Shown: piece by piece, positions 13,401 to 63,960 of the stretch
How the letters are laid out: each line of letters begins with the position of its first letter
Position numbering within the stretch: position 1 is the stretch's first letter
DNA from: Alviniconcha marisindica
Taxonomy: Eukaryota; Mollusca; Gastropoda; Provannidae
NCBI GenBank assembly: GCA_018857735.1
Contig: JABMCL010000453.1
Coordinates: forward strand, 1,296,501-1,360,500
Direction: 5' to 3'
DNA length: 64,000 nucleotides
Made by a program: the position numbers and the translations under genes
The notes under the pieces: generated by a model
The model's input: the letters and a program-made list of their open reading frames with translations, nothing else
Told to the model about the DNA's origin: nothing
The model's database searches: none

Positions 13401-16400
13401 TGTGTGAAAGTTGAGGTGGCAGTCCTGGGCTCCGTGTCCCTAGTAGTCCACACGGTCTCTGTAGACCTGAAGCTAAATTGAACTAGAGCCTCTCAGCAAA
13501 GATGATTCATCTTGCAAGGCCTTTTTTTTTTCCATTTTGGTTTTATCTTTTTGGTGTGTGGGGGGGGGGGGGGGGGGGGGGGACTTGGCTCTGGTAATGC
13601 TGTATCAGTTATGGGATTCTAGTTGTAGTAGCTTCTCTCTAAGAGCAGACAGATGGCTAGACTCTAGCAGAACTTCCTATCAGCTGTGGCAAGCAGCCAG
13701 AGACAGACGCTGGCCACTCTAGCAGAACTTGTGATTAGCGAGCAGCCAGAGACTACCTGGGTGTCTAGATCCACTTTTTGTTATTCACAACAAAATGAGC
13801 TTAATTTGCATTGATACGTTGATTGCAGATCTTACCCACCTACCACCTCTCCTTATGCAGTATTTTGAGCAGCTTTTGTATAATTCACAGGTGCATTATT
13901 TTGAGTAGGTTTTGTAAAATTCACAGATTGACCAAACAGTGAAAGGGGGTCAGAATTTTAAAAACTCACATCTGTTTGGGCATTCTTACTGAGAGAGAGA
14001 GAGAGAGAGAGAGAGAGAGAGAGAGAGAGAGAGAGAGAGAGAGAGAATTACTAGCAGTCCACAAAACTCAGGCTGGTTTTGTTGATTTTGTCTCTGTCTG
14101 TGTGGTAATTACCTGTAGTCAAATAAGCAGTGGGTACAGAATACTGGGATACAGGTATCAAGGCAGGCATAATGAATAAAATGCAAAACGCTAACGAATA
14201 TGTACAAGAATAATTGTGATGTGACAGAGAAGTTTGAATGGAAATTGGGGGGGATGCAGTGGAAGTCAGTCTGGAAAGGGTTAATGGGTCAACATATGTG
14301 TCTTTCATTCCAAAGGAATGATGTTTTGCACCTTTTACAGACCTTGAACACTGATTTTCATGTGATGTATCAATAAATATCCAGTCATGTTGTTATTATC
14401 CAGACCTGTGCATGTCTGGAAATAACAGCCAGTTCAGGTATCCCCAACAGGTAAAGATTCCATCAGACTTTCTCATGAGTAGAACCTATGTGTGCATCTG
14501 ACAGTTTGAGTTCTTTATTTTGACTGGAGTGTGAGGTTGTGAAGATTCCTGGCCTGTGCACCGGTTGTGAGGAGTTCAGACAGGTCAGCAGGTGGCGGTG
14601 GAGAACTGCAATGGGAGCTCTGTTCTGCTGGGCCTGGCAGCAACAGACACAAGGGGGCATTGGCCAGCCTGTCTGCTAATGCCGTCATGAATGCAGGCGG
14701 GTTCAAGTGGATTTCTTGTAGAACTGCTGAAGTTGAAGATGTTTTTTTCTCTCCTGTTTTCAGAACTGCTGTCTCAGCTGTCCAGTGTGCGTAACCGGGC
14801 TGCTGCAGCTCAGAGTGTGTCCTCCCAACTTCAGCAGTTGGAGATGCAACTGCAGTCCACCAGGTAAATGCCTCTTTGGATTTTCCAGCTAGAGTGCACC
14901 AGGTGTGTGTGCTCTGTCTACCTAGCCAGCTGCAGTCCACCAGGTATGTGTCTGCTTGGTCTGCCTAGCCAGCTGCAGTCCACCAGGTGTGTGTGCTCTG
15001 TCTACCTGCCAGCTGCAGTCCACCAGGTATGTGTGTGCTCTGTCTCCTAGCCAGCTGCAGTCCACCAGGTATGTGTGTGCTCTGTCTACCTAGCCAGCTG
15101 CAGTCCACCAGGTATGTGTGTGCTCTGTCTACCTAGCCAGCTGCAGTCCACCAGGTATGTGTGTGCTCTGTCTACCTAGCCAGCTGCAGTCCACCAGGTA
15201 TGTGTGTGCTCTGGTCTGCCTAGCCAGCTGCAGTCCACCAGGTATGTGTCTGCTTGGTCTGCCTAGCCAGCTGCAGTCCACCAGGTTGTGTCTGCTTGGT
15301 CTGCCTAGCCAGCTGCAGTCCACCAGGTGTGTGTCTGCTTGGTCTGCCTAGCCAGCTGCAGTCCACCAGGTATGTGTCTGCTTGGTCTGCCTAGCCAGCT
15401 GCAGTCCACCAGGTGTGTGTCTGCTTGGTCTGCCTAGCCAGCTGCAGTCCACCAGGTTGTGTCTGCTTGGTCTGCCTAGCCAGCTGCAGTCCACCAGGTT
15501 GTGTGTGCTGTCCCCCCTGCAGTCGGTGTTCTGGTCTGCCTAGCCAGCTGCAGTCCACCAGGTGTGTGTGTTGGCTCTGTCTACCAGCCAGCTGCAGTCC
15601 ACCAGGTATGTGTCTGCTTGGTCTGCCTAGCCAGCTGCAGTCCACCAGGTGTGTGTGTGCTTGGTCTGCCTAGCCAGCTGCAGTCCACCAGGTATGTGTC
15701 GCTTGGTCTGCCTAGCCAGCTGCAGTCCACCAGGTGTGTGTCCGCTTGGTCTGCCTAGCCAGCTGCAGTCCACCAGGTGTGTGTGCTTGGTCTGCCTAGC
15801 CAGCTGCAGTCCACCAGGTGTGGTGTGCCCGCTTGGTCTGCCTAGCCAGCTGCAGTCCACCAGGTGTATGCCCGCATGGTCTGCCTAGCCAGTTACAGTC
15901 CACCAGGTGTGTGCCCGCTTGGTCTGCCTAGCCAGGTGCAGTCCACTAGGTGTGTGTCTACTTAGTCTGCCTAGAAAGTTGCAGTCCACCAGGTGTGTGT
16001 GTGTGTGTGTGTGTGCGTGGTCTGCCTAGCCAGCTGCAGTCCAACAGGTGTGTGTCTGCTTGGTTTTCGAGACAGCTGCAGTCCACCAGGTGTGTGTCTG
16101 CTTGGTCTGCCTAAACAGCTGCAGTCCACCAGGTGTGTGCTTGGTCTGCCTAGCCATCTGCAGTCCACCTGGTGTGTGTCTGCTTGGTCTGCCTAGCCAG
16201 CTGCAGTCCACCAGGTGTGTGTCTGCTTGGTCTACCTAGCCAGCTGCAGTCCACCAGGTGTGTGTCTGCTTGGTCTGCCTAGCCATCTGCAGTCCACCAG
16301 GTGTGTGCTTGGTCTGCCTAACCATCTGCAGTCCACCTGGTGTGTGTCTGCTTGGTCTGCCTAGCCAGCTGCAGTCCACCAGGTATGTGTCTGCATGGTC

Positions 16401-19400
16401 TGCCTAGCCAGCTGCAGTCCACTAAGTGCCAGTGAGCAGTTGTCGCACTAGACATTTTCCAAACCAGTGTGACATCTGCAAGGTGGCAAAAATGGTTCAC
16501 GGAAACCAGTCAGATAATAGCTGTAACCAGAGACATGGTCCTCCATACTACTACTACAGCTGTACGAGCAGACAGCCAGCTCCCTTCCCCGTCTATAACA
16601 CGCACACACACATATATGCACATGGTGGTGTTCAACTGTGGTGCTTTATTTTATTTTTTAAAATATATGTATAGTTTTTGTTGTTTGTTTTGTTTTTGAG
16701 AACCAAACAAAATAACAGCCAGTACATCTGACCAATTGCAGAATGTTTTCGTGGTGATCATAACCAGTAAAATATCAGAAATTACCGGTCAACACAAACC
16801 TTGAATGAGCCATTATAATGTTGAGTAGGTATGATTAATTCCTATAATCTGATGAGAGACTGATATTTTAAGTATAGTACTTAAGACTAGGAGTAAAACC
16901 CCACCTAGTTCAGGGTGTCTATTATGTCTTTCAACTGTGTGTTCATTGTGTTAATCTGCCAGGGTACTGGGTTTACAGAAGATAAAAAACATTGCCCACA
17001 AGCCATGCATTTTAAAACTTGTGATTGTTGAAACAGCGCTGACCTTTCTCTGCCCATCCTGTTGCTGTACTATTGGGCGATTCAGGCGGGGTTGTTAACT
17101 CCCTTGACTTTTGCCCAGCATCGCTTAAGTACCTTGGCTGCTTTTACTTCCGGTGCATACTTTCTTCACAATGGAAGGCGGTGACAGTCAATTTGCGAAT
17201 TTTACACTGCCAGCTTTAAAGGCATTTTTGGAGGCCCGTAGTCATAATGTGTCTGGCAATAAGCAATAACTTGTTGCTCGTGCTATAGGATGCCCCAAAA
17301 CACATTTCTTTTACGAACTCGCATCTTCTGGTCAGCCAAAAAACAATGCAAAGACACTTTTTTCCACCCTCCATCCCCTTTCCATGGTAATTTTTGCAAC
17401 TGCAACAATATTAGCATTTGTACTGCTTCACGATTCTAGGTTCACCTTCCACTGTTATACACAGTGTGAAGCAACGCCTACTCAGAAATCAGCCCGGAAG
17501 TGCACTGCGACCTCTTGCAACTTCTTGCGTGAAAGATTACAAAGCACATTCACTCTAGCAAACCAGCTTCGCCGAATTGCCCAATAGGTATCAGTGAGAA
17601 ACCTGGGTAGGGCAATGGTTTAAACAATTTGTCCTTCATCTGCCCCCCCTGTTGCTGTACTACAGGGATCAGTGAGAAACCTGGGTAGGGCGATGGTTTA
17701 AACAATTTACCTTCGTCTGCCCATACATGTGTCAGTGAGAAACCTGGGTAGGGCGATGGTTTAAATAATTTACCTTCGTCTGCCCATACATGTGTCAGTG
17801 AGAAACCTGGGTAGGGCGATGGTTTAAATAATTTACCTTCGTCTGCCCATACATGTGTCAATGAGAAACCTGGGTAGGGCGATGGTTTAAATAATTTACC
17901 TTCGTCTGCCCATACATGTGTCAGTGAGAAACCTGGGTAGAGCGATGGTTTAAATAATTTACCTTCGTCTGCCCATACATGTGTCAGTGAGAAATCTGGG
18001 TAGGGCGATGGTTTAAATAATTTACCTTCGTCTGCCCATACATGTGTCAGTGAGAAACCTGGGTAGGGCGATGGTTTAAACCATTTACCTTCGTCTGCCC
18101 ATACATGTGTCAGTGAGAAACCTGGGTAGAGCGATGGTTTAAACAATTTACCTTCGTCTGCCCATACATGTGTCAGTGAGGAACCTGGGTAGGGCGATGG
18201 TTTAAACAATTTACCTTCATCTGCCCATACATGTGTCAGTGAGAAACCTGGGTAGAGCGATGGTTTAAACAATTTACCTTTGTCTGCCCATACATGTGTC
18301 AGTGAGGAACCTGGTGAGGGAAATGGTTTAACAGTTTACACTCAGTCTGTTACTTTAAAGTGGGGTTTTGTGTTGTTGTTTTTAAATCTTTGATCTCGCT
18401 CTGGACACTTCAGATGTGTTTATCCATCTGGACTGTAAATTTATTGGGACTGGTAGTTACCAAAGTGTCTGTTGGCATGAAAATTAAATCTGGAAACAGG
18501 CACACATCTATACAAACACTGAATCAGCTGTGGTCTGTGGTGACCAGTTTCTATGATTTAAAAAAAAAAAGTGGGGGGAGGGCGCGGTGTAGATTGCATG
18601 CACAGGAACTTTCGCACATGACTGAAGTTACGGTCTCCATGTGGCTGAATGCTACAGAAGCACTTTTCTTTCTTTTTTTTGCCCCATTGGCTCGATTGAA
18701 CAGCCTGTAACAGTGAAATGCATCAGGTTTCTGACACTTTCTGCCAGGCAACAATTAGAGCGGATGCCCCGTCGCCAACCTGAGGCCAACAAAGCTCCAG
18801 CAGGAAATGCCAACCCCACCATTACCAACCCAGAATCGGGCCTCGCCTCCTCTCAGACCTCCAGCAGCTCGGAGTCACAGTTCTTGCTGGCAAAGTGAGT
18901 ACGCTGGTTTTCTTCTCCTCGGCAAGGGCTCTTGTTTCAAAGCAATTGTCAGTATGGAAGGAATTAACTTCTATTATGACATGGGTGGGAGTTACAAGAC
19001 AATGGCAGTGATGAGAGCTGATGTACACATTACTTGCATAAATCTGTATGATGGAAGATATGAGAAGAAGATGTTATCAGCTTGCTAGAGTAATGATACT
19101 CAAAACTTGCTAGAGCCATCATTATATCCAGAGTGTTGCTAGAGCCACCATGATATCCAAACTTGATAGAGCCACCATGATATCCAAACTTGATTGAGCC
19201 ACCATGATATCCAAACTTGATAGAGCCACCATGATATCCTAACTTGATAGAGCCACCATGATATCCAAACTTGATTGAGCCACCATGATATCCAAACTTG
19301 ATAGAGCCACCATGATATCCAAACTTGATTGAGCCACCATGATATCCTAACTTGATAGAGCCACCATATCCAAACTTGATTGAGCCACCATGATATCCTA

Positions 19401-63762: not shown

Positions 63763-63960
63763 GTGAGTGTCTGCATGCAGCCCTTCCGTTCTCTCTCCTT
63801 TACACTGCAGACGCATGCGGTATTTCCGTCCTCTCTCCTTTACATTGAGTGTGCTTGCAGCCCTTCCATCCTGTCTCCTTTACACTAACGCATGCAGTCT
63901 TCTCTTTCTTTCCCTTTTACAGTGTCTGCATGCCGTCTTCTTTTTGTCTCCTTATCGTCA
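63763..63960. repeat. ~45-bp tandem copies of the PBLD exon 9 end and donor
   Basis: CTCCTTTACA followed by GTGAGTGTCTGCATGC, or variants, recurs about four times. The first instance (GACCTTTACA/GTGAGT) is the real exon 9 donor. Confidence 0.75.

Follow-up and report, generated by a model that had tools for sequence, protein, structure and literature searches.

We analysed a window of 64,000 nucleotides from the gastropod Alviniconcha marisindica (NCBI GenBank assembly GCA_018857735.1, contig JABMCL010000453.1, positions 1,296,501 to 1,360,500 of the forward strand), in which four genes were modelled. At 10 of the 43 splice junctions in these models (four donors and six acceptors), the repeat unit of an adjoining minisatellite holds the edge of the exon together with the exon's own splice site. 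Exon edges were set from the window DNA guided by homologous proteins, and the frames, which were then translated, were open in all four models:

1282-21327, + strand: KCMF1, seven exons in the window, the first coding exon lying outside.
44072-30802, - strand: an ankyrin-repeat gene, eight exons, from start to stop.
45879-46107, + strand: BBIP1, a single coding exon, Pfam BBIP10 family.
55894-63762, + strand: PBLD, eight exons in the window, the remainder, including the last coding exon, lying outside.

The BBIP1 acceptor was inferred from its motif, which lies one base ahead of the ATG, and position 44600 was assumed as the beginning of this gene's 5' intron. The PBLD protein matched Babylonia areolata (57%) and Nucella lapillus (56%) best; the ankyrin-repeat protein matched Babylonia (68%), Nucella (67%), Batillaria (65%) and Littorina (63%), and KCMF1 matched Batillaria (83%) and one other record (85%). 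Judged by these matches, the genes belong with those of caenogastropod snails. A generic ankyrin consensus used as a tblastn query gave one weak match only. An extra PBLD exon (HLAVGN..., about 60249-60330) was considered and rejected, as the homologues agree with an exon beginning at 60647, and this piece belongs to the intron. Exon numbers are those of the coding exons in these models; the numbers of an earlier note on this DNA run one higher in places and are taken to denote identical sites.

Minisatellites at splice junctions

Tandem Repeats Finder (TRF) detected 71 merged arrays in the window, 46 of them with a unit of at least 15 base pairs (bp), and 23.4% of the window was covered; one array is one merged TRF cluster, with a period rule of our own. 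Minisatellites cover 33.8% of introns, 7.6% of exons and 6.4% of the sequence between genes, figures that refer to these four genes with partly assumed limits. The intergenic part includes retroelement-like stretches. The ten arrays that carry an exon edge are:

14846..16428, + strand: KCMF1 exon 5 donor (last exon base 14863); 43-bp unit, about 35 copies, TRF 14885-16422. The 35 aligned units each carry the last ~18 exon bases (83-94% identity), with GT in 34 of 35.
30873..31600, - strand: ankyrin exon 8 acceptor (exon edge 30954); unit of about 149 bp with the acceptor and ~80 exon bases, TRF 30873-31322 and following rows. Three intronic copies, AG in 3/3, are interleaved with short ACACATCACATG-like repeats.
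33142..33624, - strand: ankyrin exon 6 acceptor (exon edge 33199); 81-bp unit with the acceptor and 58 exon bases, TRF 33142-33527. AG in 3/5 copies; identity drops steadily with distance.
37307..37792, - strand: ankyrin exon 2 donor (exon edge 37775); 76-bp array with 38-bp half-units, the exon end being followed by GTGAGT. TRF (37307-37788) straddles the edge by 14 exon bases; GT in 5/10 copies.
45554..45889, + strand: BBIP1 acceptor and start codon (inferred exon start 45879); array of about 70 bp, by TRF. Units contain CTGTGACAG followed across the junction by GATG; AG in 8/8 copies, and weaker copies start at about 45435.
59010..60058, + strand: PBLD intron 2 (59010-60039) and exon 3 acceptor, by TRF. 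A (GT)n tract (59010-59190) starts from the donor's own GT and is followed by a 53-bp array (59188-60058, 16 copies) with the exon 3 acceptor and 19 exon bases; AG in 13/16.
60333..60672, + strand: PBLD exon 4 acceptor (exon edge 60647); 47-bp array, by TRF, with 26 exon bases by that program and perhaps ~40 from the translated copies; AG in 5/7 copies.
62341..62741, + strand: PBLD exon 7 acceptor (exon edge 62738); 35-bp array, by TRF, with only ~4 exon bases, the weakest exon overlap of the set; AG in 9/10 copies.
62906..63290, + strand: PBLD exon 7 donor (exon edge 62934); array of about 54-56 bp, by TRF, with 26-29 exon bases (ARPEDPVTG) and the donor; GT in 4/6 copies.
63755..63900, + strand: PBLD exon 8 donor (exon edge 63762); 40-bp array with 8 exon bases, TRF 63755-63886.

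PBLD intron 2 (1,030 bp) is tandem repeat throughout (array fraction 1.00) and has no unique sequence. By TRF alone, 9 of the 43 junctions fall within a minisatellite that reaches over 4-82 exon bases: the ankyrin exon 2 donor and exon 6 and 8 acceptors, the BBIP1 acceptor, and in PBLD the exon 3, 4 and 7 acceptors and the exon 7 and 8 donors. The KCMF1 exon 5 donor, where the TRF array begins 21 bp into the intron, was recognised as the tenth case by unit alignment. In a separate search for copies of all 43 junctions, nine scored at least 14 (z 4.7-16). The PBLD exon 8 donor was weak in that search (z 3.3), near the best unaffected junctions (z 2.8 and 2.3), and none of the remaining 33 junctions stood out (best z 2.8). 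The claim of the earlier note that arrays are built from the junctions they touch thus holds at these ten junctions. All nine sites it had named were recovered, KCMF1 by unit alignment and the others by TRF, and the ankyrin exon 2 donor had been overlooked. Its further statement that arrays always lie on the intron side is true of 10/10 arrays; this is nearly automatic, because the exon-attached copy is the one that is called real. The unit spans the boundary with its splice signal, and both 5' and 3' exon boundaries are affected, as in the minisatellites known as 'mirages'.

Two further arrays adjoin donors in PBLD:

56006..56516, + strand: 52-bp array next to the exon 1 donor, starting at the fifth intron base and holding no exon edge.
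61523..61597, + strand: (GA)n next to the exon 5 donor, starting at the fifth intron base.

Direction of descent and relations among the copies

Where the overlap is long, the copied exon portions encode residues that are conserved in other snails. At ankyrin exon 6 the relatives read TPKDF (5/5) and the real exon TAKDF; among the five copies, one distal copy reads TPKDF, the two nearest TAKDL and another TSKDF, and the farthest is degenerate. At ankyrin exon 8 the relatives read SGP (4/5) or SGQ (1/5) and the real exon CAP, and the three copies read SGP, CGP and CGP (two of these rows start one base early and were translated one base on). The glycine of 5/5 relatives is therefore kept in 3/3 copies where the real exon has alanine. 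Since some copies keep ancestral residues that the real exon has lost, the residues indicate that the arrays at ankyrin exons 6 and 8 descend from an earlier state of the exon, and not the exon from the array. At the shortest overlaps, those of the PBLD exon 7 acceptor and the PBLD exon 8 donor, the direction cannot be told. The alanine common to the real exon 6 and its nearest copies hints at two rounds of growth, and gene conversion could also explain it.

Identity among copies gave a mixed picture. The median core identity of an array lies between 65% and 86%. Identity decayed with distance from the exon in 4/10 arrays (p<0.05, uncorrected) and showed no significant decay in 6/10. The earlier suggestion of decay in at least one case is borne out at this nominal level, and decay as a general rule was rejected. 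In the core columns the exon-attached copy was atypical in KCMF1 only (0.79 vs. 0.85 among copies); in the other nine arrays it was as typical as the copies or more so. It was more typical than every copy at ankyrin exon 6, BBIP1, and the PBLD exon 7 and exon 8 donors, which fits the exon as parent, although copies were found and aligned by similarity to the exon-attached copy, a procedure that favours it. An initial description of the exon-attached unit at PBLD exon 3 as an outlier to a homogenised core was withdrawn, as the whole-unit comparison had matched unlike sequence.

Placement of the arrays and their possible origin

All placement tests cover this window only. The window was picked after the fact for its striking look, so the P values are optimistic. 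The earlier note had proposed comparison with shifted exon positions, and when arrays were shifted rigidly against exons no junction excess was seen (9 observed, mean 9.87, SD (standard deviation) 3.44, P = 0.64), nor at stricter overlaps of 8 bases (8 vs. 9.60 expected) and 11 bases (7 vs. 9.42). This follows from arrays filling about a third of the intronic sequence. Likewise, a tandem copy lay nearby at 9/43 junctions, at 140/400 random intronic points and at 18/400 intergenic points. Both nulls count the bulk of grown arrays and not the births of arrays.

We therefore also used a founding-unit null, in which each array is collapsed to one unit and placed at random and exon-damaging placements are dropped. 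The period of ankyrin exon 8 was set by hand to 149, and in the intron-conditioned version KCMF1 exon 5 was counted by hand as a straddle. For the 36 genic arrays with units of one period, 9 straddles were observed vs. 1.92 expected (P = 8e-5); the whole window gave 1.48 expected (P = 1e-5), and genic units of two periods 3.34 (P = 0.005). Conditioned on introns, one period gave 10 straddles, KCMF1 included, vs. 3.43 (P = 7e-4; P = 0.003 for 9). At 1.5 periods the expectation was 5.17 (P = 0.017; 0.048 without KCMF1), and at two periods 6.81 (P = 0.10; 0.21 without KCMF1). Across assumptions the excess was 1.5- to 6-fold, with P from 0.2 to 1e-5. By gene, observed and expected counts at one period were 1/0.79 for KCMF1, 3/1.39 for the ankyrin-repeat gene, 5/1.19 for PBLD and 1/0.06 for BBIP1. 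The earlier judgement that chance placement is unlikely hence depends on the null: the founding-unit nulls give an excess, which weakens as longer units are allowed, and rigid shifting gives none.

For non-straddling arrays, leaving aside PBLD intron 2 with its lack of unique sequence, 9 of 33 junction ends had an array within 60 bp (expected 4.4, P = 0.02). Within 5 bp of a junction there were 2 vs. 0.45 (P = 0.08), and within 10 bp 2 vs. 0.83 (P = 0.20). The 26 genic arrays away from junctions were scored with small weight matrices built from 15 acceptors and 16 donors. Neither acceptor nor donor scores were above background (Kolmogorov-Smirnov p = 0.79 and 0.08, the latter towards weaker). 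That arrays elsewhere are not splice-like argues against the splice motif itself drawing in duplications, and we rejected it as a general seed. Taken together, a preference for junctions is suggestive, not demonstrated, and the earlier proposal of a genome-wide process that seeds duplication at boundaries finds only partial support within this window.

We favour the reading, at a probability of roughly 65%, that the arrays are minisatellites of the 'mirage' type, that is, tolerated junction-spanning duplications in a repeat-prone genome, to which some junction bias may perhaps add. A short tandem duplication would happen to cross an exon-intron boundary. The extra copy would land on the intron side, and the protein would not suffer so long as splicing kept to the site attached to the exon; slippage or unequal exchange could then multiply the copies. 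In a genome as unusually rich in intronic minisatellites as this one, many such events may survive, and junction-spanning duplications would be the main exon-touching kind that selection lets through, duplications within exons being mostly removed. We infer here the mechanism of duplication, and likewise that splicing still uses the real site and that the copies have hardly any function or none. Four results weigh against tolerated duplication as the whole account. A purely passive placement does not predict the one-period founding-unit excess (9-10 vs. 1.5-3.4), nor would it lead us to expect the non-straddling arrays to crowd near exons as they do within 60 bp. A homogenised core with a divergent exon-attached unit, the pattern of amphioxus, was found in 1/10 arrays (KCMF1), and GT is lost in 4/4 copies at the PBLD exon 8 donor.

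A rival reading is that a boundary-linked factor raises the rate of tandem duplication, as the earlier note had proposed. Candidates for such targeted seeding are DNA damage coupled to nascent transcripts or splicing, stalling of replication, and the exon edge acting as a repeated template. It draws on the one-period nulls, both genic and intron-conditioned, on the hint of two growth rounds at ankyrin exon 6 (where one copy predates and two share the change from proline to alanine), and on two microsatellites and one minisatellite that begin 0-4 bases from PBLD donors. Set against it are the shifting test with its lack of excess, the fading of the intron-conditioned excess once founding units of two periods are allowed, the choice of the window after the fact, and the arrays elsewhere that are not splice-like; KCMF1, moreover, has 18 arrays and just 1 at a junction. 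We consider targeted seeding possible but unlikely.

A bolder version, which we regard as doubtful, would make exon edges recurrent templates for duplication in this snail lineage. Arrays would arise at the junction and be replenished repeatedly from the exon, older copies being pushed intronward, so that introns grow from their ends; some, such as PBLD intron 2, would consist wholly of their own amplified splice sites, and the copies would form a fossil record of earlier exon sequence. If this were true, finding the same process in both lancelets and snails would argue for a general mechanism of duplication linked to junctions.

Decoy splice sites and relation to known systems

The decoy splice sites described in the earlier note are present in the DNA. 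Pooled over the ten arrays, 84/104 copies other than the real one keep the splice dinucleotide, a count that excludes two doubtful rows (62777, inside PBLD exon 7, and 45831, a register slip in BBIP1) and becomes 85/106 with them. With both rows included, the dinucleotides were kept at least as well as other columns in 7/10 arrays, most clearly in KCMF1 (0.99 vs. 0.77) and BBIP1 (1.00 vs. 0.79), which suggests that decoys are not generally purged. Retention was slightly poorer than that of other columns at ankyrin exons 2 and 6, and at PBLD exon 8 it was much poorer. In KCMF1, 26/34 decoy donors are no worse a match to the donor consensus than the real one. Use of a decoy would yield a premature stop in 72 of the 76 testable cases. 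Decoy use would thus usually be damaging, and either the real sites win, for example by exon definition, or decoys are rarely used. The exception is ankyrin exon 6 (0/3 with a stop), where the 81-bp period is a multiple of 3 and all three canonical decoys are open in frame; their use, if it occurred, would insert 27-residue repeats into the protein.

These data also bear on whether the copies are kept by selection, as clouds of many weak decoys that attract or buffer the spliceosome or make regulated isoforms possible. The retention of dinucleotides overall and in KCMF1 and BBIP1, the strength of the KCMF1 decoy donors and the open frames at ankyrin exon 6 are what such selection would predict; the premature stops, the poorer retention in two ankyrin arrays and the loss at PBLD exon 8 are not, and we find this explanation very unlikely. 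Misassembly that made or inflated the arrays is highly improbable: arrays are difficult to assemble, but the copies differ too much from each other (median core identities above), at ankyrin exons 6 and 8 there are copies with residues older than those of the exon, and the same anatomy recurs in ten arrays of four genes. We give equally little credence to exon boundaries having slid into older intronic repeats, with exon edges derived from the repeat, since the long overlaps are conserved coding sequence in other snails and the ankyrin copies hold ancestral residues; only the short overlaps at the PBLD exon 7 acceptor (~4 exon bases) and exon 8 donor (8) would allow it.

The snail arrays are a real, well-formed example of the known mirage kind, dense and now in a mollusc. 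Studies by Gao and Lynch in 2009 and by Zhuo and colleagues in 2007 reportedly dealt with internal gene duplication and introns from tandem arrays, and the snail arrays would share with them the general link between internal tandem duplication and introns. Among the matches listed in the open-access literature, junction-spanning minisatellites appeared only in amphioxus, gene by gene, and no molluscan case appeared. Two reports (PMC3087553, PMC3902484) describe amphioxus mirages in Adh3, the globin genes BflGb6 and BflGb9, troponin C and PGBD5, those of PGBD5, Adh and troponin C being noted again in PMC3902484. In the globin mirages both boundaries are affected and many, not all, units keep AG or GT; reverse transcription PCR suggested normal splicing. 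Length instability was also seen in the amphioxus mirages (PMC3087553, PMC3902484). The snail arrays likewise span both boundary types, with many, not all, units keeping AG or GT. They differ from the amphioxus cases in their host, a mollusc and not a chordate, in affecting 10/43 junctions in 4/4 genes, in one intron that consists wholly of repeats, and in being known from the DNA of one haplotype, whereas the amphioxus work had reverse transcription PCR and length variation. In amphioxus BflGb6 the boundary units escaped homogenisation (PMC3087553), a pattern seen in the snail in KCMF1 only.

Two further systems share parts of this anatomy. In the AGGT model of intron gain (PMC4974935), a tandem duplication across an intron-exon boundary reuses existing splice signals. 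The snail duplications also cross the boundary carrying such signals; unlike in that model, there is no sign of a new intron, the arrays lying within introns and the exon edges fitting homologous proteins. Dual-specific splice-site arrays (UBC, VCX3A) have tandem units each with an AGGT-type site, and in UBC the units are coding sequence, a variable number of which is spliced (PMC10809524). The units of the KCMF1 array each carry such a site as well; unlike in UBC, nearly all testable snail decoys bring a stop, ankyrin exon 6 being the exception. In its accessible part, a Conus paper mentions simple repeats in introns and makes no mention there of boundary copies.

A dense molluscan case makes such arrays a candidate general route to intron growth and to new splice sites. 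It may shed light on intron growth and on whether duplication has hot spots at exon edges, and it could serve as a system for testing splice-site choice among dozens of near-identical copies. Intronic copies may preserve earlier states of an exon, and genomes of this kind may trip up gene predictors and repeat maskers.

Other features of the window were recorded alongside. KCMF1 intron 4 contains, on the + strand, a 44-bp array of about 34 copies (11016-12509). Its unit includes TTTTATTTGTTGTCATTGTGCAG, which strongly resembles an acceptor and whose score is equalled by about 1% of 300 background segments; the array could mark an unannotated or lost exon. KCMF1 intron 3 (4033-5274, + strand) has the donor ATATCCTTT and the acceptor end TTAACCTTGTTAC, edges that preserve the frame and resemble those of a U12-type AT-AC intron. 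Open reading frames with reverse-transcriptase-like FADD motifs lie at 48200-50950 and 57100-58250 (+ strand); these are presumably broken non-LTR (long terminal repeat) retroelements. Near the start of the window, positions 194-272 form a run of about 79 bases that is almost all cytosine.

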